A stretch of 49,201 bases of DNA from a virus, in IMG/VR virus record IMGVR_UViG_3300043449_001335, positions 1 to 49,201 of that record; one strand, written 5' to 3'. The notes under the pieces were generated by a model. That model made no database searches. It was not told where the DNA came from and saw nothing but the letters and a program-made list of their open reading frames with translations. The position numbers were made by a program, and so were the translations under genes. Shown one piece after another: positions 14,526 to 40,932 of the stretch. The stretch's first letter is position 1. Every line of letters starts with the position of its first letter.

Positions 14526-14531
14526 ATGATA

Positions 14532-14540: not shown

Positions 14541-14548
14541 TAATATGG

Positions 14549-15622: not shown

Positions 15623-15672
15623 GTTTTGTCCTTATCTGATATACTATTATAGCAGAGAAAGATATAGGTAAT

Positions 15673-20869: not shown

Positions 20870-22066
20870 TTATTCTCCGTTCCATACCCAGACATTTCCA
20901 GTGTATCCAAGATTGCGTAGCTTATTCTCTAGCTCGTCTTTGATATTCCATGCAAATACTATTATATCAGTTGGATCAAGTTTTAGCATCTCGTCCATAC
21001 TAACAATTGGAATATTTATTCCTGGTATGTTGTATCCTTGTTTTTCTTTTACATCGTCTGCTATTGCAGAAATCCGCTTAGTGCTAATGCCAGCAAAGTT
21101 AAGCATAACAGTTGACTTGGCTGATGCACCTACACCACAGATAACTGCTCCTGATTGCCATAGACTTTCTACCTTGCCCTTAAACTTATTAGCCTTATCT
21201 AAGATTCTTTCCTGAGTTTCTTCCCATTTAATTCTATCAATTAGGCCATACTCAATTTCCTCTCTGATTGCTGTTCTAACGCCCTCCAGAGGCTCTCCAC
21301 CCTGCTTAATCCAATATCTATTAGAACCACCCTGTGGAGGCGTTGACTGCACGTTAAACAACGATAGTCCAAACTTGTTAGCAAGTTTTGCTACTGAGTA
21401 TGCAGACAAGTAAGAATAGTGTTCATGAAAAATTACGTCAAAATGATCGTGATCAAGGATGTTCATTACTGTTGGATTTTCAATAGTAACTGTAGTATCT
21501 GATCCACAAAGAGCTGAAATACCAGCCATAAAGCTTTGGATATTTGGAGTATGTGCAAGAACATTATTTGCAATAATCCACTTTGGCTTACCCTTTAATC
21601 TAACAATCTCATTGGCTAGTTCAACGCTAAAGAAGTCAGTAATTACTGGAACCCCATCACAAATAGCATACATAGAGATATTTTCTGCAGGGTCAACACC
21701 AAGAACATCTATACCTTTTTGCTGCAAATACTTTAGTAGGTATCCATCGTTACTTGCAATTTCAAGAACCCAATCACCTGATTTTATTGTAGGTACCACA
21801 TGCTTATCTGCAAAATCATGAATGTATTCTATGTATGACTTACTTGTTGATGTACGCCAATTATAGTTTTTGTATAGTTCAGATGGAGATAGGTCGTGAG
21901 ATAGCTGACCTAAGCCACAGTCTTCGCACATAAGCATTCTATTCGGATATAGATAGCTTGGCTCTGTATCTTTAGTGAATGCCCCAGCAATTGGCTGAAG
22001 GCCAAGATCAATAGCAGGAAATAGTCTTGTGCTATTACATGCTCTACAAGTTTCTCTTACAACCAT
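20870..22066 (-). CDS. sugar C-methyltransferase (TylCIII/NovU type)
   Basis: The protein has an N-terminal zinc region (CRACNS and CEDCGLGQL), a SAM-binding core VLEIASNDGYLLKYLQQKG, the FHEHYSYLSAYS segment and a C-terminal Rossmann-like domain with ICGVGASAKS. This three-domain layout, about 400 aa, is that of NDP-sugar C-3 methyltransferases. The start at 22066 uses GGAG at 8 nt and overlaps the dehydratase gene by 10 nt. Together they would make and methylate a deoxysugar. The upstream dehydratase and nearby glycosyltransferases support a glycan role. Confidence 0.88.
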   Translation of the reverse strand: MVVRETCRACNSTRLFPAIDLGLQPIAGAFTKDTEPSYLYPNRMLMCEDCGLGQLSHDLSPSELYKNYNWRTSTSKSYIEYIHDFADKHVVPTIKSGDWVLEIASNDGYLLKYLQQKGIDVLGVDPAENISMYAICDGVPVITDFFSVELANEIVRLKGKPKWIIANNVLAHTPNIQSFMAGISALCGSDTTVTIENPTVMNILDHDHFDVIFHEHYSYLSAYSVAKLANKFGLSLFNVQSTPPQGGSNRYWIKQGGEPLEGVRTAIREEIEYGLIDRIKWEETQERILDKANKFKGKVESLWQSGAVICGVGASAKSTVMLNFAGISTKRISAIADDVKEKQGYNIPGINIPIVSMDEMLKLDPTDIIVFAWNIKDELENKLRNLGYTGNVWVWNGE

Positions 22067-23058
22067 TCTGGATGCTCCATATACCATTCAACAATTTCCT
22101 TTAGCGATTCATCAAGATCATATGGTGGTGTCCATCCAGAATCGACCAGCTTGCTATTATCAAGTCCATAGCTTGAGTCGTAACCTGGTCTTGAAATAGA
22201 TGAGTCTACCAGATTATATGAAATTGGCTTACCAATTATGTCAGCAATCTTCTGTGCCCACTCAAGGTTTGAATACTCAGCATCCCCTGCGATATTAAAT
22301 CTCAAAGGTTTGTCTGCGTCTGATGGCAGTGGAAATTCCTGCGACAATGCATGTAGCAATGCAGATGCTTTGTTTCCTGCATAAAGCCAATAACGCTTTC
22401 CAATCTTGTCGCCATCATAAGTGTGTATATCTAGAGTCTCACCATTGATAATTTTCTTAATTGCCATTGGTGTAAACTTCTCAACATTCTGACATTCCCC
22501 AACAATATTCATTATGTTAACAATACCTACTGGAATACTATATGTTCTCCAGTATGAATAGATAATGTCTTCCTGTGCAGCTTTAGATGCACTATATGGA
22601 TTGCTTGGAAGGTGTGTATCCCATTCAGTAAAATTACGACCTTGGTATGGACCAAACACTTCATCAGTCGAAACGTGGATAAACTTCTCTGGCTTAGCTT
22701 CACGTGCCCAGTCAAGCATGTGGCAGATGGCCTGAACATTATTAATAATAAATGGTGCAGGATTTGAAATACTTCTGTCTACGTGACTTTCACTTGCTAA
22801 GTTAATAACATAATCAATCTTTCCAAACTGCTTTGCAGTAACAGGTGAGATTGGTGCGGTCAAGTCACATGTTAGCAGCTTAACCCTGCTTAGCTTTTCC
22901 TCTGATCCACCAGTTGCAAAGATAATTCTATCTTGCAATCCATGGTGATGGAATGTAGTCAAACAAACTACTTCCCAATCTGTAGTATTCAGTATACGCT
23001 TTAGTACGTGGCTTCCTACAAAACCTGAAGCACCAGTCAGCAGAACTCTCTTAGTCAT
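22057..23058 (-). CDS. NDP-sugar 4,6-dehydratase-like (RmlB family) enzyme
   Basis: RVLLTGASGFVGSHVLKRIL binds NAD; HVSTDEVFG and YSASKAAQE carry the Thr-Asp-Glu and YxxxK catalytic residues of dTDP-glucose 4,6-dehydratase. About 333 aa. It would convert an NDP-hexose to a 4-keto-6-deoxy sugar, the input of the downstream C-methyltransferase. The start at 23058 overlaps the upstream gene by 8 nt (ATGACTAA). UDP-GlcNAc dehydratase or epimerase activity cannot be excluded. Confidence 0.86.
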   Translation of the reverse strand: MTKRVLLTGASGFVGSHVLKRILNTTDWEVVCLTTFHHHGLQDRIIFATGGSEEKLSRVKLLTCDLTAPISPVTAKQFGKIDYVINLASESHVDRSISNPAPFIINNVQAICHMLDWAREAKPEKFIHVSTDEVFGPYQGRNFTEWDTHLPSNPYSASKAAQEDIIYSYWRTYSIPVGIVNIMNIVGECQNVEKFTPMAIKKIINGETLDIHTYDGDKIGKRYWLYAGNKASALLHALSQEFPLPSDADKPLRFNIAGDAEYSNLEWAQKIADIIGKPISYNLVDSSISRPGYDSSYGLDNSKLVDSGWTPPYDLDESLKEIVEWYMEHPEWL

Positions 23059-23287
23059 CTCCCTTGAGCCTATTCTCTTGCAATCTTTCTCTTTCATCGA
23101 CAAATGAGTATGCAAACTTCATCATCTTGTCGTATCCTACGGCATTATCCATAACCTTGTTATAGTGATGTCCACAAAACAATAGGTCTCCAGTAACACC
23201 AGTTACCTGAACGTAGGCCTGAGCCCCACATGAGTCACAGCGATCATTTGCTGTTAGCTTATATTCCTTGGTATCTAACTGTTCCAT
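23051..23287 (-). CDS. DUF7455-type small zinc protein
   Basis: YKLTANDRCDSCGAQAYVQV and LLFCGHHYNKV match the conserved LTAADRCDRCGAQAYV...LLFCGHH block of an actinobacterial protein family. The two CxxC/CxHH clusters likely bind zinc. 78 aa. The start follows AAGGATGAG. Presence in this phage is further evidence for an actinobacterial host. Function unknown. Confidence 0.82.
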   Translation of the reverse strand: MEQLDTKEYKLTANDRCDSCGAQAYVQVTGVTGDLLFCGHHYNKVMDNAVGYDKMMKFAYSFVDERERLQENRLKGDD

Positions 23288-25808: not shown

Positions 25809-27227
25809 TTAGCGACATATCTTAGTTTTGTAAGTGTTTTCCCACTCTACAATATCATTCTCATCATTTAGCAATGGCTGCCCCTTAACATTTAGGCTTG
25901 TATTCAATAGTACTGGAACTCCTGTTGTCTCGTAGAATTTTGTTAGCAGGGCATGTAGTCCAGGGTGCTGCTCTTTAGTTACAGTCTGCACTCTTGATGT
26001 ACCGTCTACGTGAACCACAGAAGGAATCAGATCTGGCTTTAGACAGCGTGGGGTATACTGCATATATGGAGACTCATAGTTCATATCAAACCACTCAGAA
26101 GCATGCTCAGCTAACACTACTGGTGCAAATGGTCTAAAGAGTTCCCTCTTCTTAATTCTATTTACCTTATCTTTGATCTCTGGATCCCTTGGGTCTGCAA
26201 GAATACTTCTATTGCCCAATGCTCGTGGACCAAATTCTGCTTTTCCAGATGCAACTGCAACTACCTTATTTGTCATCAGCTCATCGAATAGCCTGTCTAC
26301 TGGGTATTCTCCACCAAGATCATACCCAAGGTAAGGACCTTCCCACTTTACATGTTTTCCATAAAGTGCAAGGGCAGCACCAAGTGAACTGCCAGCATCT
26401 CCAGGATTAGGCATAATCCAAACATCTTTAAATAGACTCCAAAGCTTTGTATTTGCCTTGCTATTCAAAGCACAGCCACCCATAAATACTAGGTTGCTGT
26501 ATTCTGGCAAATCTTTGCGTACCTGAAACATAAAATCCATTAGTCTTTCTTCATACACAAACTGAACAGCAGCAGCAATATCAAACTTGTCTTGCTCACT
26601 AACGATATTATATGGCCAGTCTGTTATACCTTTATGATAGTTATACTTCTGGCTATTTATGTTTGGAAAGTATGACAGCACTTCTTCGTAATAAGTTTTT
26701 GGATCTCCATACCCTGCCATACCCATAAGAATGTACTCATGCTCGTTTGGCTTTAGTCCTATTAAGTTAGTAAATGCAGTATAGAAAAGGCCAAAGCTTA
26801 GTGGATATTTAACTTCTTTAAATAATTTTATATCTTCTCCATCTGCAGTCCAAACCGTAGATGTGGCAAATTCTCCCATTGCATCAAGAACAACTATTGC
26901 TGCCTTGTTAAAGTAACTGGTATAGTATCCAGCACAAGCATGCGAGTAATGGTGCTTAAAAGATACGTCATATCTATGTGTTGGCTTCCAGTTAGCAGCA
27001 CCACCATGTCTAAATAGTCTAAAACGCTTAAGCCATGGCTTTTCATAGTATGCAGTTACATCTGGCTTGCCATACTGCAGGGCATCTTTCCATAGCTCAC
27101 TGTTTGTGTACCAATCATTCTTTTCTTTGCTATATCGTTCAGCGTGACCTGCAAACAAAATCTTGCCGTCTTCGACTACAGCTAGAGCTGCATCGTGGGA
27201 TGTTTCATTGAATCCAAATACTCTCAT
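25809..27227 (-). CDS. NodU/CmcH-type O-carbamoyltransferase
   Basis: MRVFGFNETSHDAALAVVEDG and FKHHYSHACAGYYTSYFNKAA carry the N-terminal HDAA/HHxxHA metal motifs, and the C-terminal part has the SGKAEFGPRALGNRSILADPRD and KKRELFRPFAP elements. 472 aa. It would transfer carbamoyl from carbamoyl phosphate via carbamoyl-AMP to a hydroxyl group. The ATG at 27227 overlaps the SGNH gene (ATGA) after GGAG. It is last in the operon. The acceptor could be a sugar or a hydroxymethylated base; adjacent glycan genes favour a sugar. Confidence 0.93.
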   Translation of the reverse strand: MRVFGFNETSHDAALAVVEDGKILFAGHAERYSKEKNDWYTNSELWKDALQYGKPDVTAYYEKPWLKRFRLFRHGGAANWKPTHRYDVSFKHHYSHACAGYYTSYFNKAAIVVLDAMGEFATSTVWTADGEDIKLFKEVKYPLSFGLFYTAFTNLIGLKPNEHEYILMGMAGYGDPKTYYEEVLSYFPNINSQKYNYHKGITDWPYNIVSEQDKFDIAAAVQFVYEERLMDFMFQVRKDLPEYSNLVFMGGCALNSKANTKLWSLFKDVWIMPNPGDAGSSLGAALALYGKHVKWEGPYLGYDLGGEYPVDRLFDELMTNKVVAVASGKAEFGPRALGNRSILADPRDPEIKDKVNRIKKRELFRPFAPVVLAEHASEWFDMNYESPYMQYTPRCLKPDLIPSVVHVDGTSRVQTVTKEQHPGLHALLTKFYETTGVPVLLNTSLNVKGQPLLNDENDIVEWENTYKTKICR

Positions 27228-28165
27228 CTTTTTACTCCAAAACAATTATCAAGTATATAATCACTCCACATTGTATGAAAATGTTCTCCAAAGTGAGAGT
27301 CATCTCTTGCTACCAAGCCAAAGTCCTTGTGCCCATCTCTTATTTCAATCATGTGAACTTTTTCAAATATATCGCCTTCAGTAACCTTATGAAATGACTT
27401 TAGTTTGTGATCAGCCAGCTCATCTATTGTATTTTCGTCACCCCAGCTATCCCATGTAATCATAAATAGATCTATTCCTGCTTCTTTGCATAACAACTCA
27501 AGCATCTCTATTTGCTGAACTGTTAAAAATTTAATCAACATTTTTGTTGCTGGGCTCATCTTTAGCGGTGACTGCCTTATATCTGTTCCAGGCATTGTTG
27601 TTCTATCGTCACTAGTTGCACACAAACTAAGATCAACGCCCTCTGTAGTTACACTAGCATTGACTCCATAAAACCTATATATTTGTGGAAGATTGATAAT
27701 TATTTTATCTGGCTTTCCAAACCTTTTTATATATTCAACAACCATATAGATTATTTGAATGATGCTTAGGCCAGGAAATGATATGTTAAAGTATCCACTA
27801 CACTTGGTTTGTTCAGATATTTTGTTGTATACCTTTTTTGCCCAAACTTCATCTTCAAATAATCCGTCACCCCATGTAACAGAACATCCAGCAAAAAGAA
27901 TATGCTGACCATCATGCTCTGATGTAAAATCATCACACCTATATCCAAAATTATTAAATCTTGATATTGTTTCTTTTGCCCATGGATAAGTCTCTCTATC
28001 TGAATACTCAACATTAAGAATGTCATTGTTTTCATCAGCAATATTAACAATGGTGTGATGTAAATATCCAACAGTAAATGGAATGAGATCTGCTAAACCA
28101 TTTTCTGGTTCAAAGTAGTATTGATCTCCTTTAGGAATACTGTGTCTGAAAGGTGCAATTGGCAT
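27224..28165 (-). CDS. SGNH/GDSL-like hydrolase (second copy)
   Basis: HILFAGCSVTWGDGLFEDEVWAKKV carries block I (Ser after GC), NISFPGLSIIQIIYMVVEYI a block-II/III region, and DDSHFGEHFHTMW the catalytic Asp/His. 313 aa. Its layout is the same as the protein at 4401-5258. The ATG overlaps the preceding peptide gene by 1 nt. A role in acetylation, deacylation or esterification of the same glycan as the carbamoyltransferase is plausible. Confidence 0.75.
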   Translation of the reverse strand: MPIAPFRHSIPKGDQYYFEPENGLADLIPFTVGYLHHTIVNIADENNDILNVEYSDRETYPWAKETISRFNNFGYRCDDFTSEHDGQHILFAGCSVTWGDGLFEDEVWAKKVYNKISEQTKCSGYFNISFPGLSIIQIIYMVVEYIKRFGKPDKIIINLPQIYRFYGVNASVTTEGVDLSLCATSDDRTTMPGTDIRQSPLKMSPATKMLIKFLTVQQIEMLELLCKEAGIDLFMITWDSWGDENTIDELADHKLKSFHKVTEGDIFEKVHMIEIRDGHKDFGLVARDDSHFGEHFHTMWSDYILDNCFGVKR

Positions 28166-28251
28166 TAGTATATAAACTCTTTCTTTTTCAACTTCTTTTT
28201 ATTCTTAATCTTCCATATTTTAAATCTTATTTTCCAAATAATAGATTTCAT
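28165..28251 (-). CDS. 28-residue very basic amphipathic peptide
   Basis: The frame MKSIIWKIRFKIWKIKNKKK then LKKKEFIY starts after a clear CAGGAG site. It lies 1 nt after the upstream oxygenase stop, and its stop overlaps the SGNH start (TAATG). Alternating Ile/Trp and Lys/Arg positions would give an amphipathic helix followed by a Lys-rich end. This resembles membrane-active peptides, but coupling to the SGNH gene could also be its only role. No homologue is known to me. Confidence 0.6.
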   Translation of the reverse strand: MKSIIWKIRFKIWKIKNKKKLKKKEFIY

Positions 28252-28252
28252 G

Positions 28253-28900
28253 TTACTCCTGACCGTTTGACATAATTGGCTTTGCCATATTGTGATACCA
28301 ATGTGGCATAGCATAACGAGATCCATCTGTAACCTCAAATACTTCGTGTACGTAAAGGAAGTTTGATGGGAAAAATACAATGCTTCCAGCTTCAGGCTTT
28401 ATCTTTACTCCAGACTGCCTAAACTCAATCTCTCCGCCATCATAATTATCATTTAGATACATCACTGCAGAAAGGACTCTGCTAGATATACCATGGTCCT
28501 GATGTGGAGGAAGATGCCCACCACCATCATATCTTAGTAACGTACTTCCTAGCTCTTCAGACTTTATGTTATTTTTAGCAAACGGATATATTGAACAGTA
28601 ATGTTCAAATGCCCTATCTAGTGCACCAAATACAGTATCTCCAAGCTCCATCATTTCGTCTTTATAATAACATTCTGGAGAGATATCCCTTGATCTAAAT
28701 ATATTTTTTCTATAGTTAAATGGTTTTGGCATATGTTCATCCCACCAAGGCTCCCAACCATCTGCCTGAGCAGTCTGTGCTCCATGCTCTTTTGCTTCGA
28801 CACGTCTTGCAACATCCTCAGCCAAGTCAATAACTTTTTGTGGGTTATCCATAACGTTTGTATAATATACAAGACCTAAATCTAAAACTTTAAAGTCCAC
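28253..28900 (-). CDS. 2OG-Fe(II) oxygenase (prolyl-4-hydroxylase type)
   Basis: The canonical triad is complete: HLPPHQDHG gives H133 and D135, LYVHEVFEV gives H185, and DGSRYAMPHWY gives R195. RVLSAVMYLNDNYDGGEIEF is the typical strand pair. The start is GTG at 28900, with AGGAAGAGC upstream and an 11-nt overlap with the preceding oxygenase gene. 215 aa. Together with its neighbour it forms a tandem pair of distinct oxygenases inside the carbamoyltransferase operon. Confidence 0.9.
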   Translation of the reverse strand: MDFKVLDLGLVYYTNVMDNPQKVIDLAEDVARRVEAKEHGAQTAQADGWEPWWDEHMPKPFNYRKNIFRSRDISPECYYKDEMMELGDTVFGALDRAFEHYCSIYPFAKNNIKSEELGSTLLRYDGGGHLPPHQDHGISSRVLSAVMYLNDNYDGGEIEFRQSGVKIKPEAGSIVFFPSNFLYVHEVFEVTDGSRYAMPHWYHNMAKPIMSNGQE

Positions 28901-29498
28901 GCTCTTCCTCTTCCATATCGTATTCAGCTGCTGCATACCCAAGATAGTCATCTGGCTCAACCATATCTGGGTCTGCATATTGTGGATCACTAGTTAAGCA
29001 AACCACAACAGAAAATCTTTCTCCAGATTTCATCTCTGAAATTCCGTGCATATATTCTCCACCAGCTGATGGAAAAATAACACCATCAAGGTCTACTGGC
29101 TTATAGATAAATCCTTGATTTGGAAAGTGAAGGTTTGCACCAGTAAATTTTCCACCAGGATACAAAACTGCACTCCACTCAATCCATGGCTCAGGGTCAA
29201 CTGAGTCAGTGTGTACTCCGCCAGAGTATCCAACCTGTGTTGTATAGTTCATAAAAACTTTATAAACATAAACTGGATTTTTAAATCCATAAAGCTCTTT
29301 AACATATTCAGCAGCTTTGCGTCCATACTTCTTATTCAAGTATCTTGTATTTTCGTTGTAAGGAAGAGCTGTGCCACCAAACCTATCCTTGTAGTATTCT
29401 GGAAATGGCTCAACCTTAGAAGGTTTTCTTGCCTCATCCATGTAGAGCTGTGCATCGTTTGGCTCTATAAAATTATTAATTATCTTTATACTATTCAT
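28890..29498 (-). CDS. 2OG-Fe(II) oxygenase
   Basis: GGVHTDSVDPEPWIEWSAVLYPGGKF gives H96 and D98; GEYMHGISEMKSGERFSVVV gives H151 and R161. The N-terminus MNSIKIINNFIEPNDAQLYM is like the others. 202 aa. It is distinct in sequence from the next gene, so it is an older duplication or separate acquisition. The start at 29498 abuts the glycosyltransferase stop. Confidence 0.85.
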   Translation of the reverse strand: MNSIKIINNFIEPNDAQLYMDEARKPSKVEPFPEYYKDRFGGTALPYNENTRYLNKKYGRKAAEYVKELYGFKNPVYVYKVFMNYTTQVGYSGGVHTDSVDPEPWIEWSAVLYPGGKFTGANLHFPNQGFIYKPVDLDGVIFPSAGGEYMHGISEMKSGERFSVVVCLTSDPQYADPDMVEPDDYLGYAAAEYDMEEEERGL

Positions 29499-30373
29499 TA
29501 GTAGATCGCCTTTACTCCAACTATAAATCTTCTAGCATCAACGCTGTGCATGTCAAGTTTGTATGGATCATAGCTGACATCGTTAGTCTGATATGGAAGA
29601 TAGTTAATTGATTCTGGATTGATATTATATGAATTTATGAATGCAAGTCTTCCTTGCTCATTCATTTCATACCTTTCAAGATCAATACCCTTAATAAGTC
29701 CAACAACTATATTGTAATTATGTTCCTTTGACCAAATACAATATTTATTTTCAATTGATCTTTCTTTATTATCAGACATCATACTTGATGGCATTGAGCA
29801 AATCTGATAACCCTTTGATAGAAAAGCAATAGATAGATACTCTTGCTCTCCAGCATACTTCAAAAAATCTGGGTAGCGAATTTGATTGAAAGCTTCACTA
29901 GATCCAAATATAAAATTTCTGTCTATAAAGTTAGTGACCTTATAATTATCCCAGTCTGACCATTCTGGCTTTATGTCAAATAGGTTTGGCTGAGTTACTT
30001 CAACTTTTCCAGCACCAGAAATAATAGTTGGAACATCCTGAGACTCAACATATTGCACCAACTCCCTATCCCATCCGTCAGACAAAGTTATGTCTGGTGA
30101 TATTAGACAAATATAGTCTGCACCCCTCATATCATGAAGCTTATTATGACGTGCTCTACAATGACCAGCTATATCATCCCAAATCTTGTGGTCATAAGAG
30201 CAATACTCTTCTATGTCCTTGAAGTCATTTCTATGATCAATTGCGTTTTGGTCAAATATATTAAACCTAACTTCATGGTATGACCTAGACTTTATATCAT
30301 CTACCATGGCCCTTAGATTCTTATCTTTATAGCCCACTATGATTACAGCAATTGACTTAGTCTGATTCATCAT
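29498..30373 (-). CDS. GT-A glycosyltransferase-like protein
   Basis: IAVIIVGYKDKNLRAMVDDI then GHCRARHNKLHDMRGADYICLISPDITLSDGWDREL fit a GT-A fold with a DIT-type metal site, like the GlcNAc-transferase at 12049-12999 but shorter (291 aa). NFIFGSSEAFNQIRYPDFLKYAGEQEYLSIAFLSKGYQIC resembles the acceptor domain. The start follows GAGGTAAAGC. The donor is unknown. Confidence 0.7.
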   Translation of the reverse strand: MMNQTKSIAVIIVGYKDKNLRAMVDDIKSRSYHEVRFNIFDQNAIDHRNDFKDIEEYCSYDHKIWDDIAGHCRARHNKLHDMRGADYICLISPDITLSDGWDRELVQYVESQDVPTIISGAGKVEVTQPNLFDIKPEWSDWDNYKVTNFIDRNFIFGSSEAFNQIRYPDFLKYAGEQEYLSIAFLSKGYQICSMPSSMMSDNKERSIENKYCIWSKEHNYNIVVGLIKGIDLERYEMNEQGRLAFINSYNINPESINYLPYQTNDVSYDPYKLDMHSVDARRFIVGVKAIY

Positions 30374-31142
30374 GCTTTACCTCTTTAAACAATTTGCCAG
30401 CAAGACCAAAGATCTTTCTTCTCCATGCAGTTTCTTTATAGTAACCATATAGTCTTGATCTTCTGTTTTCTGCCCTGAACCAATGTTTTTCATGTGCCTC
30501 TGGCGTATGATCTGTCTCAAGCTCCCAGTTATCTCTCTTAAATGGTATCATTTGAAATATTGGTGTGCCCTTTGGAATTACCCCACGGAAGCCACGCTTA
30601 AGGAAGAATGCAGTAAATACTGGAAGCCCCCAAATATCTGCCTCAACGATTCCTGACAAGGTGTAGAAGGGCAAGTCGTGCCTATTCATTGGATGAGTTA
30701 TTAATACAGAATATCCTGGTGGTGTTTCGTAGTACCAGTTCATTCTCCAGCCATAGTGAATTGGATGGCAATTATCTGGAAGGGGAACATCAAAAATTGG
30801 CCTTGTGTCAACTAACATTACATCACCATTCCAATACAATATTGGGTGTCCATTTTCATCCATATCTACATATAGATCATCTTCAAGACAGTATTGGTAG
30901 CCAGCAGTTAGTGCATCAAAATATGGCATACACATTTTTGTAGACACCATTGCACCATCATTGCCAATGTTATTTTTAACCCCAAGTGTTGTGTCGTCAT
31001 TAGACTTATCAAATCTTGCCAAGTGACGATACCACTCTGGAACATGCTTAGCAGCTGGTTCTGGTGGATACAACACAGGATGTCCTGGCTTCTGTGGGTT
31101 GCCAGGTACAAATGTAATCTTCTGTGTTACATCCTTAGCCAT
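30357..31142 (-). CDS. hypothetical protein, tandem paralogue of 31142-31864 (261 aa)
   Basis: Conserved with the next gene are KMCMPYFDALTAGYQYCLED, GYSVLITHPMNRHDLPF and FFLKRGFRGVIPKGTPIFQMIPFKRDNWE. These blocks suggest a beta-rich fold that binds a ligand; I think this family occurs in marine and actinobacterial phages (possibly DUF6065), but this is not certain. No catalytic motif is evident. Its start shares one base with the upstream stop. Confidence 0.6.
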   Translation of the reverse strand: MAKDVTQKITFVPGNPQKPGHPVLYPPEPAAKHVPEWYRHLARFDKSNDDTTLGVKNNIGNDGAMVSTKMCMPYFDALTAGYQYCLEDDLYVDMDENGHPILYWNGDVMLVDTRPIFDVPLPDNCHPIHYGWRMNWYYETPPGYSVLITHPMNRHDLPFYTLSGIVEADIWGLPVFTAFFLKRGFRGVIPKGTPIFQMIPFKRDNWELETDHTPEAHEKHWFRAENRRSRLYGYYKETAWRRKIFGLAGKLFKEVKHDESD

Positions 31143-31864
31143 TACTTATACTCTTTACGGCTTCTAAACTTATTCTTATACCCATTACTAAAGGTACTAC
31201 GCAAACTGTGACGCTGAGGAATGATGTCCTTCTTGGTTGCTTCATAGCTCTCAATCTTCATCTGCCAGTCTTCTCTCTTAAAAGGAATTACCTGAGCGAT
31301 TGGCGTTCCTTGTGGGATTACGCCCTTGAAGCCTTTTTCTACCCAGAACGAGAAGTGCCCATCAGTAGCAAACCCATCTGTATCTACAAGTCCTGCCACA
31401 GCAAACAGTGGAGATGTATCGCCATGTAGCGGTTGCATAATTAGTGTGCTATAGCCCTTTGGTGTCTTTACCATCCAGAATGGCATAATTCTTAGAAGAT
31501 CTTGGTGCCACTTTTCTCCATAAGGATATTTTTCGTACTGTCTACGTTCATGCGAAGCGAACATATCACCCTTGAACTTTGACATAGCCAAAGGAATTTG
31601 CCAAGTAAGCTTTTCTCCAGTTGCATCTACAAAGACATCCATAGGAAGTCTTAGCGTATATCCTGCTGTAATTGCATCAAAAATTGGCATACACTTCTTT
31701 ACAGTGCTTGCAGGCTGACCTGTCTGTGCCATCATTTCACCTGAATCAATTGATCCTGGTGTATCCTTGTACCACTGTGGTAGATTCTTAGATCCTGGTG
31801 TTGGCTCTGGTACGAAACTTTCTACATCATCATTCAATGGGTAGAACTGTATTATATTTGTCAT
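31142..31864 (-). CDS. hypothetical protein, tandem paralogue of 30357-31142 (240 aa)
   Basis: Shows KKCMPIFDAITAGYTLRLPM, GYSTLIMQPLHGDTSPLF and FWVEKGFKGVIPQGTPIAQVIPFKREDWQ, matching the next gene block for block. MPEWYRHL-type and LPQWYKDTPG segments also correspond. The pair arose by duplication. A role in the operon's chemistry is possible but unproven. A TGATATAAT box overlaps the upstream gene near 31884-31892. Confidence 0.62.
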   Translation of the reverse strand: MTNIIQFYPLNDDVESFVPEPTPGSKNLPQWYKDTPGSIDSGEMMAQTGQPASTVKKCMPIFDAITAGYTLRLPMDVFVDATGEKLTWQIPLAMSKFKGDMFASHERRQYEKYPYGEKWHQDLLRIMPFWMVKTPKGYSTLIMQPLHGDTSPLFAVAGLVDTDGFATDGHFSFWVEKGFKGVIPQGTPIAQVIPFKREDWQMKIESYEATKKDIIPQRHSLRSTFSNGYKNKFRSRKEYK

Positions 31865-32519
31865 AGAATTCCTTTACTCTTTCTACTATTATATCACTTG
31901 CATAAAAAACTATGTCGAACATAGCTGATTGTCTTGGTATCTTGCCAAAATCTGGACTAACCATGTGTGGGCCAACTTTCCTAAAATTAAAAGGAACAAA
32001 CGGAGGCTCTACATATTTTACTGATTGATCTATCTTGGCAAACCTATGTCTAATCGGATAAGTATTAAATGGTGTAACTATTGGAGATGGCTCAATAAAA
32101 ACTTCAACGTTCTCATCTATTATCCATGGAACATAAAATTTGTAGGTTCCATCAAAACAATCCTGTGCTTTTAGATCAAGTTTAGTATTGTAATACTGCC
32201 TCATCCAAGGTCTATCTCTATTTATAAATCCTTCGTGCTCGTGGATTAAAAGAAACATTTCTGCATGGTTGCCTTGGCGAAGTCTAACTATATTATTTTC
32301 AATACTAATAAGCTGTGGTGGTGGAACCAAAGCTTCTACGTATTTATTAATAGGCTTGATTACTTGATCTAAATATGGACCAGTTCTTATTCTATTAAAG
32401 TTCATCCAGAATTCGGGTATGCCAGACTTAAAGCATATGTCCACAAACTGTGGGTCTTTGGTGTCATACCATACTGTAAATGTTGGTGCTTCACCAGTTG
32501 TTATCTGAGGCTTTTCCAT
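31830..32519 (-). CDS. hypothetical protein heading the modification operon (229 aa)
   Basis: MEKPQITTGEAPTFTVWYDT, EFWMNFNRIRTGPYLDQ and WIIDENVEVFIEPSPIVTPF. The YPIRHRFAKIDQSVKYVEPPFVP segment is beta-rich. The start at 32519 follows GAAAGG at 7 nt. It overlaps the next gene by 35 nt and is the first gene of the chain of overlapping genes that ends with the carbamoyltransferase. A TATACT box lies about 20 nt upstream. No family recognised; a distant relation to the two following genes cannot be excluded. Confidence 0.55.
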   Translation of the reverse strand: MEKPQITTGEAPTFTVWYDTKDPQFVDICFKSGIPEFWMNFNRIRTGPYLDQVIKPINKYVEALVPPPQLISIENNIVRLRQGNHAEMFLLIHEHEGFINRDRPWMRQYYNTKLDLKAQDCFDGTYKFYVPWIIDENVEVFIEPSPIVTPFNTYPIRHRFAKIDQSVKYVEPPFVPFNFRKVGPHMVSPDFGKIPRQSAMFDIVFYASDIIVERVKEFYDKYNTVLPIE

Positions 32520-32567
32520 ATCCAAACCTTTCTAAGTAACAAGTATACCACTTTTACTGGTGATTTG

Positions 32568-32638
32568 CACTCTCCCCTGGATTCGAACCAAGATTCCCAG
32601 GGCCAAAACCTGGTGTCCTGCCATTGGACGAGGAGAGT
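32568..32638 (-). tRNA. tRNA-Gln (UUG)
   Basis: Acceptor ACTCTCC pairs with GGAGAGT, the D stem is GTCC/GGAC, the anticodon loop TTTTGGC gives UUG, and the T arm is CTTGG-TTCGAAT-CCAGG. CCA is not encoded. It lies between the modification operon and the plus-strand methylase gene. Confidence 0.93.
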
Positions 32639-32663
32639 CTAGAAAGCATTGCCTTCTATATAA

Positions 32664-32672
32664 TGATATACT
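32664..32672 (+). promoter_or_regulatory. extended -10 box TGATATACT for leaderless transcript
   Basis: On the plus strand, TGATATACT ends 7 nt before the ATG at 32680. Confidence 0.55.
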
Positions 32673-32679
32673 ATTTTTT

Positions 32680-33399
32680 ATGGGATTGCTGACGGTTGGA
32701 TGTTTTCATCTTGGGAATAAATTAGACATATCTTTTACTACAAGAAATGCTATAGACTCTGCAGACTTGCTAGTTATAGAAAATAATGTAGATCATAGAT
32801 TTAGCTATAAGACAATGCTAGAAGACAACATGGACATATTCTTTAATGATAATACAAACAAAGATAGGGTTATTATTGAATACAAAACAGCTATGTTAGA
32901 CTTACTACCCGAAGCTGAGATATTTAAAAGATACCTTAGTGAGGGCAAGAATGTTGTAATTCTAAGTGATGAGGGATCTCCTTTGATAGATGATAGTGGA
33001 ACTTTGGCAATTAAAATGGCTAGAAGTCTTGGACATGAAGTTAAATTCTTACCTGGACCAGTAACTCCAATACTTGTTTATTCTAATGCTTTTAAATTTA
33101 TACTAGAGTTTCCACATTTAGTTAATGGATTTTGCTTTATTGCAGCAAGATCACATGATGAAGAAAGTTTAAACAAAGTTAGAAAAGCACTTGATGCAGG
33201 GATTAGTGTTGTCCTAAACTTTACACAGACTTGGGAAAACTCTAGATTAGATCTTTTATTTGGAAATAGAAAAGTAATTCTTTGTCTTGACTTAACCCTA
33301 GATACTGAGAAGGTTTGGGTTTCTCAGCTTAGCAAAGTTAATACTTACACATCTAATGGTGGAGTTTTATCTATGCTTCTTTTACCAGACCTTGCATAA
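32680..33399 (+). CDS. second tetrapyrrole methylase family (RsmI-like) protein
   Basis: GKNVVILSDEGSPLIDDSGTLAIKMARSLGHEVKFLPGPVTPILVYSNAF matches the RsmI/tetrapyrrole-methylase SAM-binding core; FCFIAARSHDEESLNKVRKA follows the pattern of the later RsmI strand/helix. 239 aa. The two RsmI-like proteins in the window are dissimilar enough to suggest separate substrates. The start is leaderless-type. It could methylate rRNA, tRNA or a small molecule. Confidence 0.75.
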   Translation: MGLLTVGCFHLGNKLDISFTTRNAIDSADLLVIENNVDHRFSYKTMLEDNMDIFFNDNTNKDRVIIEYKTAMLDLLPEAEIFKRYLSEGKNVVILSDEGSPLIDDSGTLAIKMARSLGHEVKFLPGPVTPILVYSNAFKFILEFPHLVNGFCFIAARSHDEESLNKVRKALDAGISVVLNFTQTWENSRLDLLFGNRKVILCLDLTLDTEKVWVSQLSKVNTYTSNGGVLSMLLLPDLA

Positions 33400-33946: not shown

Positions 33947-33954
33947 AAAAGTGA

Positions 33955-34025
33955 GTAGGTGGATTGCCTTTTACCACCAGTGCCTAGTCAATACGGTTCT
34001 CAAGTACCGCTTTGAGCACACCTAC
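33955..34025 (-). ncRNA. tRNA-sized structured element, not a standard tRNA
   Basis: On the minus strand GTAGGTG and CACCTAC close a 71-nt element with a 7-pair stem. It is followed by TG and a D-arm-like hairpin CTCAA-AGCGGTAC-TTGAG. No T loop (TTCRA) and no convincing anticodon arm are present. It sits between tRNA-Asp and tRNA-Asn, so it may be a decayed or highly divergent tRNA. Confidence 0.35.
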
Positions 34026-34134
34026 CGTTTGTCCGCTAAGACGATCCGCTAAGATCCGATAGTACCTTATTCCCCCCATTTGACTTTAGGAATTATTCGG
34101 TCATACTCCACACCAACCGTCATTGATGTGTTTG

Positions 34135-34325: not shown

Positions 34326-35129
34326 CTATGGTATCACAAACACAATACCTTTGTCAAGCTTCTCAGACAAATATTTTGTAGCAACTGCAACATTTGCAGA
34401 TGAAGTTGTCTGCGGAACAAGTCCAAAGATATTTGACTTGTATGAAAATACGTTTGCTGGTAGTGAACCAACCATATCAGTATTGATATCACGACTTGAT
34501 GATGGGATATAGGCACCACCAACACCAGAGCCAACAGATACGGTCTCAGTAATGCATGCTGGATATGATACTGGCTTTGATGCTCCGTTATTTCCAGTTG
34601 CAGCAAAGAAAGGAATGCCAGCACTCTTTAGGGTAGCAATGCTTGTACGAATCTGTGGATCAACTACCGCAATGTTGGTTAGTCCAAAATTAGAAAGCTT
34701 ACAGTCGCCAATCTTTGTCATGTTGCCACTAAGACTATATGAGAATGAAACTGCACCAACGGTTGCTTTGTTTGCCTCTACCCACTTAAGTGCCAAAAGT
34801 AAAGTATTGCCAGACACGCCAGAAACAGCACCCTTAGTTGATACATCTGATGCACGAATAACTGTAAGACTAAGTGTTGGATTCTGCTTTAGTGCAATCT
34901 CAGCCATTGCTGTTCCATGGTTGGATGCGTCAGATACTGACTTTGAGATGGCTCCCTTATTCAAACACTTGTCAGATGCAACACAAACCTGAGTTACAGA
35001 TAATGGCAACTTGGACAAATCAAAATAGCTGTCAATGATAACAAGTGATTTTGTGTCTGCCTGTGCTGGTGTTGCGAATGATGCAGCAAGTAATGCTGCA
35101 GAAATTACTGCATAGATTGTTTTCTTCAT
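34326..35129 (-). CDS. secreted subtilase-like serine protease (S8)
   Basis: A signal peptide MKKTIYAVISAALLAASFAT...AQA precedes a subtilase core with Asp in VIIDSYFD, His in NHGTAMAEIAL, the oxyanion Asn in FFAATGNNGAS, and Ser in TTSSANVAVATK. At 267 aa it is compact and lacks a propeptide. It would act outside the cell, and is uncommon in phages. It may degrade a host surface protein, process virion parts, or act on competitors. No clear ribosome binding site (AAGGG two bases away). Confidence 0.82.
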   Translation of the reverse strand: MKKTIYAVISAALLAASFATPAQADTKSLVIIDSYFDLSKLPLSVTQVCVASDKCLNKGAISKSVSDASNHGTAMAEIALKQNPTLSLTVIRASDVSTKGAVSGVSGNTLLLALKWVEANKATVGAVSFSYSLSGNMTKIGDCKLSNFGLTNIAVVDPQIRTSIATLKSAGIPFFAATGNNGASKPVSYPACITETVSVGSGVGGAYIPSSSRDINTDMVGSLPANVFSYKSNIFGLVPQTTSSANVAVATKYLSEKLDKGIVFVIP

Positions 35130-35143
35130 ACCCTTTTGTCTCT

Positions 35144-35323
35144 CTATTCTTTGATCTTAATTACTGGGCAACACGGATCTCCACCGTCTTCCCACTCTTG
35201 TTCTTCTTCTTCTGTCATGTATGGATCACCGTCATGGGTGTAGCAGAATGGTTCAGTTACCCATCCCTTTTCAATACCGTGTTGTAGCCAATCCCACAAC
35301 TCATCAAAGTTTTTATCTGTCAT
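35144..35323 (-). CDS. small acidic actinophage-type protein (59 aa)
   Basis: MTDKNFDELWDWLQHGIEKG, then WVTEPFCYTHDGDPYMTEEE and EQEWEDGGDPCCPVIKIKE. It resembles small proteins often seen in actinophages and actinobacteria (WVTEPFC..HD, EEEEQEWE..GDPC). Two C-terminal cysteines. The start has a TTGACA-N17-TATTAT promoter 6 nt upstream and no binding site, a second clear leaderless example. Confidence 0.72.
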   Translation of the reverse strand: MTDKNFDELWDWLQHGIEKGWVTEPFCYTHDGDPYMTEEEEQEWEDGGDPCCPVIKIKE

Positions 35324-35329
35324 ATAAAT

Positions 35330-35358
35330 ATAATAACACTAAAGGCTGACAATGTCAA
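35330..35358 (-). promoter_or_regulatory. strong promoter for leaderless small-protein transcript
   Basis: TTGACA (35358-35353), 17-base spacer, TATTAT (35335-35330), then 6 nt and the ATG at 35323. It overlaps the 3' end of the Ntn-hydrolase gene. Confidence 0.7.
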
Positions 35359-35860
35359 CTTGACCACGACAACTTGGTGAGAATTTTACTGCTGCCTCAA
35401 CAGCTTTCTCGACACGCTTCTTTGGATCTTTAAGGTGTTCTGTTGTAAATAGAGATCCATATGCATATGATGCACCAGAACCCATAGCAATGTAATCTTG
35501 TGTGTATTGGTTTAATGACATATCAACAGCATCATGTTCGTATATCTTACCCTTAACAGCAATGATCAGTGCAAAGTCTGAATCTTTTCCTGTATCTACC
35601 CACCAATTTTCATAAAATACTTTAAGAGACATTAAGAAGTCAGTGTACATAAATTTATCTAAATCGCCTTTGGGTGCTGGTGGCTTAAAGTTATATCGCA
35701 TTCTATCGCCATCCATTGCACCACAGTAACCAAACAGGTACTCTCCAGTTTTCCAAACTTTGGGGGATGTTAGTGTCATAATTACATCATCAGTGGATGC
35801 AGCACGTTCACCTGCCATAAATATTTTGTCATCTTGACGGACTACAGCAATACAGGTCAT
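35339..35860 (-). CDS. Ntn-hydrolase, proteasome beta/HslV-like
   Basis: MTCIAVVRQDDKIFMAGERAASTDD, LTSPKVWKTGEYLFGYCGA and DYIAMGSGASYAYGSLFTTE match proteasome/HslV-type Ntn hydrolases. The second residue Thr (after Met removal) would be the nucleophile. 173 aa. Phage members are known but untested. It has its own strong promoter. Possible roles are protein turnover or amidase-like chemistry. The Thr-Cys pair at the N-terminus leaves the nucleophile open. Confidence 0.78.
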   Translation of the reverse strand: MTCIAVVRQDDKIFMAGERAASTDDVIMTLTSPKVWKTGEYLFGYCGAMDGDRMRYNFKPPAPKGDLDKFMYTDFLMSLKVFYENWWVDTGKDSDFALIIAVKGKIYEHDAVDMSLNQYTQDYIAMGSGASYAYGSLFTTEHLKDPKKRVEKAVEAAVKFSPSCRGQVDIVSL

Positions 35861-35864
35861 GAAA

Positions 35865-35930
35865 AATGTCCCCCAGCTTTCTGTGTTTTAGGTACATACC
35901 TATTATACATGAGCCAGGGGACATTGTCAA
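35865..35930 (-). promoter_or_regulatory. consensus promoter enclosed by 9-bp inverted repeat
   Basis: TTGACA (35930-35925), 17-base spacer and TATAAT (35907-35902) form a consensus promoter for the Ntn hydrolase. AATGTCCCC in the spacer and GGGGACATT in the leader (35917-35925 and 35865-35873 on the plus strand) are inverted copies flanking the -10. A GGGGGA binding site precedes the ATG. Confidence 0.7.
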
Positions 35931-35946
35931 TGACTATCGATAATGT

Positions 35947-36237
35947 CTACTTAACTTGTTTCTTATCGACTGTTGCAAAAGCGTCATTAATTTCAGCGAT
36001 TGTGAGCTTGCCATCGTCAAGAAATGCTCGTGCAAGCTTTTCTACGACTGTGGCTACGCCCAACAAACCTGCAAGAAATACTGCCTGTGCGGTATCAATA
36101 CCTACGACAGCTCCTGCTCCAAGAACTCCAAGACCATTTGCAGCAAATACTGCAACGATTCTCATGAGAACATTAGACAAGGCCTTCTGACCCTGGGGTT
36201 TTGCTGGCACTGTTCCTGCTTCTTTTTTAATTGCCAT
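35947..36237 (-). CDS. holin-like membrane protein (96 aa)
   Basis: MAIKKEAGTVPAKPQGQKAL leads to two hydrophobic stretches (about 24-48 and 50-66, through AANGLGVLGAGAVVG and QAVFLAGLLGVATV) then a helical tail. Small actinophage proteins of this type are often called holins by position and topology; that is inferred only. ATG shares one base with the stop of the next small membrane gene, after GAGGAAG. Confidence 0.6.
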   Translation of the reverse strand: MAIKKEAGTVPAKPQGQKALSNVLMRIVAVFAANGLGVLGAGAVVGIDTAQAVFLAGLLGVATVVEKLARAFLDDGKLTIAEINDAFATVDKKQVK

Positions 36238-36410
36238 TAGTCTTCCTCTTCTCTATTTCTAATCGGATAGGTAACAACCCATGCGAACAGGGTTCCTAAT
36301 ATCGCATACCCAACAATCGTTTTGGCACTACCATCAAGGACTACCCAGGCAATAAACATGCCAAGAAGTGTCCATAGCTGGTCTACCATATCTTTAAAGA
36401 ATTTAACCAT
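36237..36410 (-). CDS. two-span membrane protein (57 aa)
   Basis: MVKFFKDMVDQLWTLLGMFI, then AWVVLDGSAKTIVGYAILGT and LFAWVVTYPIRNREEED: two membrane helices and an acidic end. The ATG overlaps the previous stop by 8 nt (ATGGTTAA) after AGGAGATCAA. It is coupled to the following holin-like gene, so both may act as a membrane pair. It is easily missed for its size. Confidence 0.68.
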   Translation of the reverse strand: MVKFFKDMVDQLWTLLGMFIAWVVLDGSAKTIVGYAILGTLFAWVVTYPIRNREEED

Positions 36411-38637
36411 TTGATCTCCTCATATTGTTAGACCCACCAGTAGTACCACCAGTCGTTGCTACTGAAGCTGCATTCATTGCTGCACCTGCAGCGACAACAG
36501 TTGCTACGACCATGTGTTGAGCCTCTTCTCTCTCAGCTGGGCTCATATCTGCACCAATAGATCCAAGGGCAGCAATAGCTGCTCCAGGATTTGACAGCAA
36601 TTCCCCTACGAATGCTGCTGGGTCAGAAATCAATTCAATGTTTGCTGCTACTGCAGCAGTGATAACTACGGCATTTCCATTCTCATCAGTTCTAACATCA
36701 ACTGGTGTTTGTGGTGGAAGATCAGAATATGAAACTCCAGCTGCCTTAATATCTTCGCTTGACAATGCCTCTCCTGGCTTAAGGTCTTCTACTAGAGATG
36801 AAACAATTGCTTCCTTCTCTGCTTCTGTAACTACCCCGTCTGCCTGAGCATCATCAACAATGTTTTCAGTTTTTGCTGCTTCTTCAGCAGCTTTTTCTTC
36901 AGCCTCTAGCCTTGCTTTTTCTTCAGCTAGTCTCTCTGCTTTTGCAAGTTTTTCTGCTTCTATTCTTTCTGCCTCAAGCTTTGCAGCCTCTTCTGCAGCC
37001 AATCTTTCTGCCTCTAGTCTTGCCTCTTCCTCAGCTTTAGCCAATGCTTCTGCTTCTGCTTTAGCTTTAGCCTCTGCTTCTGCAGCAAGTCTTGCCTCTT
37101 CTTCAAGTCTTAGTCGCTCTTCTTCTGCTGCTTTAGCTTCTGCTTCAAGTCTGAGTCTCTCTTCTTCTGCAGCTTTTGCTTCAGCAGCTAATCTTTCTGC
37201 TTCTGCCTTTGCAGCTGCTTCTGCAGCAGATCTAGCTTCAGCTTCTAGCCTAAGTCTTTCTGCTTCTGCCCTTGCTGCAGCCTCTGCTGCCAATCTAGCT
37301 TGCTCTGCAGCTATGGCAGCTTGTCTAGCAGCCTCTTCTGCTGCTGACTGCTGTGCAATAACAGTAGACAAATTACTAACTGATCCACTTGCATTTTGAA
37401 CTGCTGAAACTGCAATTGCTGACAAGTTAACGGCTGTTGCTATTGCCTGATTGGCATCTTGAATTGCAACTTCTTGTTCGGCCTGTGCTGACACAACTGC
37501 CTCTTCTGCAATGGCAACTTCAGATGTGACTGATGACACTTCGGCTAATGATCCATTTTCAATCTGAATTAAGCTATTTAGCAATGTGTTGCTAGATTGT
37601 AATTGATTGTTTGCATTTGCCAAATCTTGAACTTGTTGTTGTGTAGGGCTTGATGTGGTTCTAGAAAAAGCTGTTGTAGGAACTATTGACCAACTACCAC
37701 CCTGAGTCCACATAAAATGGACATTTGCTCCGCCACCATTTTCGTAATAATATAATGTCATTGGTATTGGCTGGCCAGCTTGTACGTTATATGTGATTGC
37801 AGTTCCACCACCACCTTTGTCATACCAGTCATTTATAACTGTTTCTCCATTTAGTTTTAGGATAACGCCATCGTCTGCTGGAGCATAAAGGCCAATTGTT
37901 CCAGTATATTGAGATGTAATGTTGCCACTAAACTTAACAATAAAATCTTCTGCTATCAGATTGAAGGCTGCTCCACTCCCCCAGTCAAAACTGATTTGTG
38001 TTACGGTGGTTGTTAATGTTGGTGATTTACCAATCTGTTCTGGAAGTGGTGGGGCATTATTGTATCCACCCATATTATAAATTTCTGCTTTGAGTCCAGA
38101 AGACAGGCCTATTGTTTGATTAATAGCAGTCTGTACGGATTGAACATTTTGAATGTCTGTTGCAACTACAACTTCTTGTGCATCAACATTTGCAGAAGCT
38201 TCTGCTAGATTTGCTGTAGCATCGACTAGGTTCTGCTGAGCATTATTTAAATTGGACTCTGCTTGAGTTACTGTTGCTGTAGCACCATCTACTACAGAAA
38301 TCTTAATGTTGGCTTGCTCTACAGCTGTCTCTGCAGAATCTACTGCATTGGAGGCAACCTCAATTGCCTGTGTCGCTGTAGTAATTGCTGTAGAGATTGC
38401 TTCTGTTACTGATATTGATCCTGAGCTTTGTACCGCTGATTCCATATTTTGAGAAACAATTACTAGGTCAGTATTTGCTGTTTGTAGCTGAACAACTACT
38501 GTTGACAAATCCCCCTCTTGAACAACAGTTACGGTAGCAGAATTTACCACTTCATCAGCTGATGCAGCAGCAAGTGGCCACAAGATCATGGCTCCAGTTA
38601 GGACAAATAGGGCAATTACTGCCCAAGACTTCTTCAA
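36403..38637 (-). CDS. secreted PA14-domain protein with long Ala/Glu-rich coiled coil (744 aa)
   Basis: Signal peptide (MKKSWAVIALFVLTGAMILWP...). Residues about 180-320 are a PA14-like domain: GLKAEIYNMGGYNN, YTGTIGLYAPADDGVILKLNGETV, YYENGGGANVHFMWT. A very long coiled coil follows, with many repeats of EAERLAAEAK/AEEERLRLEAE. The C-terminus has hydrophobic segments (ITAAVAANIELI, ATVVAAGAAMNAA). The start is TTG with AAGGAG. It probably acts at the cell surface or in the virion as a carbohydrate-binding stalk. TolA-like coiled coil resemblance is compositional. Confidence 0.82.
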   Translation of the reverse strand: MKKSWAVIALFVLTGAMILWPLAAASADEVVNSATVTVVQEGDLSTVVVQLQTANTDLVIVSQNMESAVQSSGSISVTEAISTAITTATQAIEVASNAVDSAETAVEQANIKISVVDGATATVTQAESNLNNAQQNLVDATANLAEASANVDAQEVVVATDIQNVQSVQTAINQTIGLSSGLKAEIYNMGGYNNAPPLPEQIGKSPTLTTTVTQISFDWGSGAAFNLIAEDFIVKFSGNITSQYTGTIGLYAPADDGVILKLNGETVINDWYDKGGGGTAITYNVQAGQPIPMTLYYYENGGGANVHFMWTQGGSWSIVPTTAFSRTTSSPTQQQVQDLANANNQLQSSNTLLNSLIQIENGSLAEVSSVTSEVAIAEEAVVSAQAEQEVAIQDANQAIATAVNLSAIAVSAVQNASGSVSNLSTVIAQQSAAEEAARQAAIAAEQARLAAEAAARAEAERLRLEAEARSAAEAAAKAEAERLAAEAKAAEEERLRLEAEAKAAEEERLRLEEEARLAAEAEAKAKAEAEALAKAEEEARLEAERLAAEEAAKLEAERIEAEKLAKAERLAEEKARLEAEEKAAEEAAKTENIVDDAQADGVVTEAEKEAIVSSLVEDLKPGEALSSEDIKAAGVSYSDLPPQTPVDVRTDENGNAVVITAAVAANIELISDPAAFVGELLSNPGAAIAALGSIGADMSPAEREEAQHMVVATVVAAGAAMNAASVATTGGTTGGSNNMRRSNG
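36860..37330. repeat. low-complexity coding repeats of the coiled coil
   Basis: Degenerate Ala/Glu/Arg codon repeats (gct-tct-gct and similar on the plus strand) repeat every 15-30 bases. They encode heptad-like coiled-coil units and are prone to copy-number change. The opposite-strand serine/alanine frames here are shadows. Confidence 0.7.
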
Positions 38638-38678
38638 AGTAGGGGTCTCCTTTGTAGGGGTAGAAGCTTAACAAAATA

Positions 38679-38687
38679 ATTATATCA
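38679..38687 (-). promoter_or_regulatory. extended -10 box TGATATAAT of PA14 gene
   Basis: TGATATAAT on the minus strand, about 41 nt before the TTG start at 38637; the leader carries AAGGAG. Confidence 0.5.
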
Positions 38688-38702
38688 CGCTTTGATAAAA
38701 GT

Positions 38703-38723
38703 AAAGGGGCACCGAAGTACCCC
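38703..38723 (-). terminator. intrinsic terminator with UUCG loop
   Basis: GGGGTAC-TTCG-GTGCCCC on the minus strand, a stable C(UUCG)G tetraloop hairpin followed by TTTACTTTT. It ends the nrdJ transcript. Confidence 0.75.
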
Positions 38724-38746
38724 AATACCTTATCCGATCTATTTAA

Positions 38747-40777: not shown

Positions 40778-40809
40778 TTTGTACGCTCCTAAAATAATGT
40801 AGAAGTTAA

Positions 40810-40839
40810 TTATAGCATAGTGTTTTTATTTTTGTAAAA
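40810..40839 (-). promoter_or_regulatory. nrdJ promoter
   Basis: TTTACA (40839-40834), 18-base spacer and TGC-TATAAT (40815-40810) on the minus strand. The leader is about 30 nt with AGGAG before the ATG. No cobalamin riboswitch-like structure is visible. Confidence 0.68.
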
Positions 40840-40888
40840 CTCTCCTTCAAGTAATGCTTTAGAGTTTTTAAAATAACAAAACGGTAAC

Positions 40889-40914
40889 AAAAAAGGGACC
40901 AGTTTCCTGGTCCC
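40889..40914 (-). terminator. intrinsic terminator with GAAA loop
   Basis: GGGACCAG-GAAA-CTGGTCCC on the minus strand (perfect 8-pair stem, GNRA loop), followed by TTTTTT. It ends the upstream secreted-protein transcript and insulates nrdJ. Confidence 0.9.
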
Positions 40915-40932
40915 CTTAGTGTTAAGCATTAA

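Follow-up and report, generated by a model that had tools for sequence, protein, structure and literature searches.

Predicted dUTPase-fold proteins, a glycosyltransferase and putative prolyl-hydroxylase-like oxygenases are encoded by a conserved gene core in a group of uncultured phages

What could a phage make with a single gene chain that encodes a carbamoyltransferase, an SGNH-like protein, two oxygenases, a glycosyltransferase and three proteins of no named function? The question is raised by an operon of nine genes on the minus strand, at 25809-32519 of the IMG/VR virus record IMGVR_UViG_3300043449_001335. The 49,201 bases of this record, here called the window, may be a fragment. The first-pass annotation of the window proposed that the operon could provide a route to a decorated sugar or to a hypermodified nucleoside. 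We tentatively favour, at somewhat less than an even chance, a reading in which six of the genes (U0-D1-D2-GT-OX1-OX2) form a cassette for hydroxylation and then glycosylation, to which carbamoylation may optionally be added; the target would be a glycoconjugate of the phage or of a surface, probably not DNA. The genes are, in order of transcription:

31830..32519, minus strand: U0, first core gene, 229 amino acids, predicted to belong distantly to the D family of dUTPase-fold proteins
31142..31864, minus strand: D1, predicted dUTPase-fold protein, DUF6065/phrog_7084-like; 35-nucleotide (nt) overlap with U0
30357..31142, minus strand: D2, tandem paralog of D1; 1-nt overlap with D1
29498..30373, minus strand: GT, GT-A-type glycosyltransferase, weakly GT60 (PF11397)/GT2 (PF00535); 17-nt overlap with D2
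28890..29498, minus strand: OX1, 2-oxoglutarate (2OG)-Fe(II) oxygenase, prolyl-hydroxylase-like; 1-nt overlap with GT
28253..28900, minus strand: OX2, 2OG-Fe(II) oxygenase (PF13640), homolog of OX1; GTG start; 11-nt overlap with OX1
28165..28251, minus strand: basic open reading frame (ORF) of 28 amino acids between OX2 and the SGNH-like gene; 1-nt gap to OX2
27224..28165, minus strand: SGNH-like protein with GCSxTxG ... D..H, from a tailoring gene that is variable and occurs in several copies; 1-nt overlap with the 28-amino-acid ORF
25809..27227, minus strand: O-carbamoyltransferase of the NodU/NovN/TobZ type; 4-nt overlap with the SGNH-like gene

The coordinates confirm a single chain with overlaps of 1 to 35 nt or a gap of 1 nt, as first annotated. 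The carbamoyltransferase starts at an ATG, whereas the raw ORF list gave a TTG start. At least two close relatives (L002 and L084) have an ORF similar to the 28-amino-acid one in this position, and L087 has a partial one. A promoter scan of the operon gave no informative signal.

Related loci were gathered by scanning IMG/VR for the carbamoyltransferase, D1, U0 and OX1 and by tblastn of the window genes on the fetched loci. This gave 181 loci bearing U0, of which 82 were non-redundant and 75 had enough flanking sequence; all counts are anchored on U0. D2 and GT were present in every one of the 75 loci, OX1 in 73, D1 in 68 and OX2 in 66. The order U0-(D1)-D2-GT-OX1-(OX2) was kept in 75/75, although D1, OX1 or OX2 is occasionally missing or displaced, and the arrangement therefore exceeds chance. 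Far from being unlinked in all relatives, an outcome that the first-pass annotation had considered, the genes are strongly linked across these loci. The linkage is conserved and also new in the annotated phage record, as U0, GT and OX1 had no match at all in a collection of 50,697 annotated phage records.

The remaining genes behave differently. The carbamoyltransferase is nearby in 63 of the 75 loci and the SGNH-like gene in 44. The position of the carbamoyltransferase varies: it can come after OX1, after OX2, after SGNH-like genes or ahead of U0, and in some loci there is no copy nearby. Many other contigs have carbamoyltransferase and SGNH-like genes with no block in the fetched stretch. 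U0 was missing from all 14 records searched whole that had either carbamoyltransferase/SGNH-like genes without the block or D genes only, some of these records being fragments. Since the order of the core is kept, while the carbamoyltransferase and SGNH-like genes are variable and also found without it, the nine-gene chain is a composite of a tight six-gene core and loosely linked tailoring genes. It is contiguous in the window, but it is not one evolutionary unit.

The first three genes of the core had been described as encoding unknown proteins. They are mutually homologous and appear to be dUTPase-fold paralogs. D1 and D2 are clear paralogs (hhalign E 9e-61), which match phrog_7084 (E 8e-47 and 2e-31, respectively) and, weakly, DUF6065, a family on which no paper was found in the literature searched. 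The AlphaFold2 model of D1, built from 44 sequences, had a predicted local distance difference test (pLDDT) score of 88.8 and a predicted template modelling score of 0.85, and all 50 of the PDB matches listed for it were dUTPases or dCTP deaminases (best 3ecy, E 4e-4, probability 1.00). D1 is thus confidently modelled with the trimeric dUTPase/dCTP-deaminase fold. When D1 was compared with one dUTPase sequence, its TAGY, PKGY, VDTD and GTPIAQ had the order and similar spacing of motif 1, the turn before motif 2, motif 3 and motif 4. The motif 3 aspartate is kept within [VI]DxD and motif 4 as GxxIxQ (GxxIAQ in D1).

There are also differences from the trimeric dUTPases, the dCTP deaminases and the dUTPase-related proteins of herpesviruses. 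Motif 2 (RSG; RS(G/S)) and motif 5 (GFGSTG) are unrecognisable in the D alignment, and the D proteins add invariant residues ahead of motif 1 (K56, C58 and D63; K-x-C...D) and occur as divergent tandem copies. Judged from these sequence features, D1, D2 and U0 are not classed as dUTPases; none of them matched PF00692 or PF22769 at E<=0.05. U0 is the most distant of the three, with no family match in Pfam or PHROGs and no DxD in its alignment. Its AlphaFold2 model (pLDDT 87.6) weakly resembles the same fold: the Foldseek hits in the PDB with probability above 0.5 were dCTP deaminases and dUTPases (up to 0.80, with weak E values), and a viral structure library returned its own family, two uncharacterised phage proteins and then a herpesvirus dUTPase (probability 1.00, E 7e-4). 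U0 also matched the pooled D profile (hhalign E 4e-6, probability 87%), and we predict that it is a remote member of the D family. Direct hhalign comparison of D and U0 with dUTPase and dCTP deaminase profiles gave no signal, with small profiles of which one contained a wrong ORF, and the assignment is thus a structural one based on the modelled folds. The tandem array of U0, D1 and D2 suggests a heterotrimer.

The other half of the core appears to be enzymatic. OX1 and OX2 are homologous (hhalign E 6e-19), and the HxD...H iron triad and the 2OG-binding arginine are invariant or nearly so in both alignments. The best matches of the OX1 profile were prolyl 3-hydroxylase 1, which acts on collagen (E 2e-9), and bacterial prolyl 4-hydroxylases. 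OX2 matched PF13640 (E 4e-18) and, in the PDB, PKHD-type hydroxylases and prolyl 4-hydroxylases; it had a weak match to Tet_JBP (E 4.5e-4). Of the two oxygenases first annotated, OX2 is solid and OX1 is supported by its profile, and both are prolyl-hydroxylase-like 2OG oxygenases whose action on prolyl residues is putative. The glycosyltransferase call is weak but consistent (GT60/GT2-like), with PF11397 matched by 8 of 19 family members (E<=0.1, best 2e-5) and PF00535 likewise by 8 of 19. Five of the related records (L024, L039, L060, L055 and L081) have 7-13 OX1-profile matches each, an unusually large number of 2OG oxygenases. A role as a defence system was considered and rejected, as PADLOC returned just a generic 2OG profile.

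The carbamoyltransferase was correctly recognised at first pass. It has both domains of the family (PF16861 E 1.5e-56, PF02543 E 2.5e-38) and the EFGPRALGNRS motif of NodU/TobZ-type enzymes, and it matches phrog_1601 (E 5e-103). The cyanophage "Nol-like" carbamoyltransferases belong to the same family, at 28-44% identity for the best phage-record matches, but the U0-D-GT-OX block is absent there. The closest solved structures are decarbamoylnovobiocin carbamoyltransferase (NovN; E 2e-58), GdmN and TobZ, which act on small-molecule sugars and antibiotics. The SGNH label is based on motifs: GCSxTxG and D...H are conserved in an alignment of 127 sequences, but no Pfam or NCBIfam model and no informative PHROGs match identifies the protein. 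A second SGNH-like protein, a paralog of the one in the operon, is encoded at 4401-5333 on the minus strand, and relatives have up to three tandem SGNH-like copies near the carbamoyltransferase.

The hydroxylation-glycosylation reading draws on the prolyl-hydroxylase-like character of OX1 and OX2, the GT60/GT2 hits, the near-invariant order of the core, the solved relatives of the carbamoyltransferase and the many sugar genes of the phage, as well as on the collagen-like proteins and the lack of a hydroxymethylase and a C5-methyltransferase in relatives, both described below. OX1 and OX2 would first introduce hydroxyls; amino-acid side chains of a protein of the phage or of the host surface are the likeliest targets. 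At these hydroxyls the GT-A enzyme would attach a sugar. The exchangeable neighbours (SGNH-like, carbamoyltransferase and other sugar genes) may then decorate this glycan or others, and O-carbamoylation of a sugar hydroxyl would be one example. U0, D1 and D2, which lack the canonical dUTPase signature, would probably form a homo- or heterotrimeric partner to which a nucleotide or the substrate of the modification would bind.

There is eukaryotic precedent for such chemistry. A GT60 enzyme adds N-acetylglucosamine to the hydroxyproline of protist Skp1. As in the phage block, the Skp1 prolyl 4-hydroxylase and Gnt1 (GT60) of Dictyostelium and Toxoplasma pair a prolyl-hydroxylase-like 2OG oxygenase with a GT60-like glycosyltransferase. 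The phage system differs in being an operon, in its weakly GT60 glycosyltransferase, in its two oxygenases, in having only a candidate acceptor, and in the addition of the dUTPase-fold proteins, the SGNH-like protein and the carbamoyltransferase. A Skp1 glycan linked through hydroxyproline is described in PMC11570480.

Which protein could be the acceptor? Collagen-like proteins are classic substrates of prolyl hydroxylases. They are encoded in the three near-complete relatives that were read and in 14 of the 16 block-bearing records of at least 100 kb, and are a plausible candidate. The literature searched contained no paper that brings prolyl hydroxylases and collagen-like proteins together with phages and tail fibers. 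Collagen-like proteins were rejected as a proven substrate, as they also occur in two of four large records that lack the block.

Several observations weigh against the cassette proposed here. Collagen-like genes are not specific to the block (14/16 with it and 2/4 without, Fisher p 0.16), two large block-bearing records have none, and from the sequences the substrate is at candidate level only. The window GT scored 20.2 bits with PF11397, under the Pfam cut-off of 21, and 12 of the 75 loci lack a carbamoyltransferase over a distance of about 7.5 kb. The distribution of the D family also points elsewhere. Haloarchaeal tailed viruses have D-family proteins at about 30% identity, without GT or OX genes; in HSTV-2 the D relative adjoins a thymidylate synthase and a DNA polymerase, and in HF2 a ribonucleotide reductase. 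A function connected with nucleotides suits these contexts better than one connected with protein glycans, and they are the strongest argument for a nucleotide-related D. HF2 also has a canonical Dcd, and D is therefore no replacement for Dcd. Bacterial D genes stand alone, without GT or oxygenase genes (L123, L128-L133, L137); in Phenylobacterium the D gene lies, as read by eye, directly downstream of a MarR-like gene, and in the gammaproteobacterium L123 D genes form a tandem pair.

D proteins without GT and OX in haloviruses and bacteria, and the occasional displacement or loss of D1, could mean that the operon has two unrelated functions, with U0, D1 and D2 as nucleotide-pool enzymes and GT-OX1-OX2-SGNH-carbamoyltransferase as separate decoration genes co-transcribed by chance. 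We regard this as very improbable, as U0, D2 and GT were always found together in the 75 loci, OX1 nearly always joins them, and consecutive genes overlap or nearly touch.

The halovirus contexts, together with the predicted dUTPase/dCTP-deaminase fold of D1 and, more weakly, U0 and the weak Tet_JBP match of OX2, would also fit hypermodification of DNA or nucleotides. Here an oxygenase would hydroxylate a base to give 5-hydroxymethylcytosine (5hmC) or, as in base J, 5-hydroxymethyluracil, GT would glycosylate and the carbamoyltransferase carbamoylate it, and the dUTPase-fold proteins would handle the deoxynucleotide pool. A 5hmC carbamoyltransferase of the same TobZ-like superfamily has been described, likewise from an uncultured phage (PMC8670742). 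According to that study, DNA-modifying carbamoyltransferases are accompanied by thymidylate-synthase homologs and can be told from the other carbamoyltransferases by the residues at TobZ W408, G421 and R423, whereas those of unmodified contigs have neighbours such as glycosyltransferase genes.

The window enzyme is only 25% identical to the 5hmC enzyme and is linked to a glycosyltransferase and oxygenases. Neither PF00303 (hydroxymethylase/thymidylate synthase) nor PF00145 (C5-methyltransferase) was found in any of 16 relatives of 100-125 kb, in searches that did detect hits in the majority of the built-in control genomes; the window record itself may be a fragment. With the three positions placed in GWA...ALGNRS via an apparent six-residue chain offset, inferred from match positions, the phage carbamoyltransferases keep G421 and, with rare exceptions, R423, positions occupied by C and T in the 5hmC enzyme. 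W408 is replaced by V, so that two of the three non-DNA-type residues are kept. The missing enzymes and these residues disfavour a 5hmC-type modification. A base-J-like route is possible because it needs neither hydroxymethylase nor C5-methyltransferase. The oxygenases, however, match prolyl and PKHD hydroxylases far better than Tet_JBP, and ThyX is present in the window; overall, we consider hypermodification unlikely. Of the route proposed at first pass, a multi-step decoration by hydroxylation, glycosyl and carbamoyl transfer, with linkage in relatives, is thus supported, whereas the hypermodified nucleoside is not.

The surroundings of the operon are rich in sugar genes, two of which lie close to it:

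22057..23115, minus strand: NDP-sugar epimerase/dehydratase (PF16363 E 2e-42, PF01370 E 8e-41)
20870..22087, minus strand: sugar C-methyltransferase-type protein (PF08421/PF13489/PF08484)

The glycosyltransferases of the window phage include GT61, GT8, PF04488 and PF11397 members, and it has a nucleotidyltransferase; the stretch 8442-17533 encodes glycosyltransferases (two GT61, one PF11397 and one PF04488) together with a fusion of a nucleotidyltransferase and a HAD phosphatase. Such a setting, the adjoining endolysin genes (CHAP/peptidoglycan-binding and peptidase-type) and the exchange of carbamoyltransferase and SGNH-like genes between relatives, as in variable surface-glycan loci, could indicate remodelling of host-envelope glycans. 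The operon would then make or tailor a polysaccharide of the surface or a glycan of a secreted protein, by which superinfection is blocked or adsorption altered, with the oxygenases acting on sugars or lipids. This is unlikely: the core block is almost invariant rather than variable, OX1 and OX2 resemble protein and peptide hydroxylases, and the window genes scanned include no membrane flippase or polymerase.

The window encodes a WhiB factor (PF02467), taken as an actinophage marker (PMC10202952); the phage and its relatives appear to infect actinobacteria. Cobalamin adenosyltransferase, ribonucleotide reductase, lysis-type enzymes and nine tRNAs are also encoded. A manA RNA (RF01745, 65 bits) lies at 33948-34128 within the tRNA array, close upstream of the operon and likewise on the minus strand. 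A TP_methylase (PF00590) protein is encoded at 32560-33399 on the plus strand; its listed GTG start overlaps tRNA-Gln, so translation probably begins further inside the gene (MGLLTVGCF...). By eye, 12989-13639 appears to hold a second, diverged copy, which has no Pfam match. Apparent signal-peptide proteins, putatively secreted phage proteins, are encoded just upstream of the operon within 34326-41931 on the minus strand (34326-35129, 36403-38637 with a PA14 domain, and 40933-41931) and are kept in many block-bearing relatives.

The presence of a near-invariant core in a large, uncultured and seemingly actinobacterial phage group, and its absence from the annotated phage collection, mean that a widespread viral function has gone undescribed. 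In its fullest form, our proposal would be a phage-encoded, hydroxylation-dependent glycosylation of proteins by prolyl-hydroxylase-like enzymes and a GT60-like transferase, optionally with carbamoylation, that needs a heterotrimer of tandem, exapted dUTPase-fold subunits and is widespread in phages of aquatic actinobacteria; in this specific form it is unlikely. The placing of DUF6065/phrog_7084 in the dUTPase/dCTP-deaminase fold provides a testable start for a family that is also found in haloarchaeal viruses and bacteria. If protein hydroxylation and glycosylation are indeed the function of the cassette, viruses of prokaryotes would have their own version of the chemistry found on protist Skp1 and collagen.

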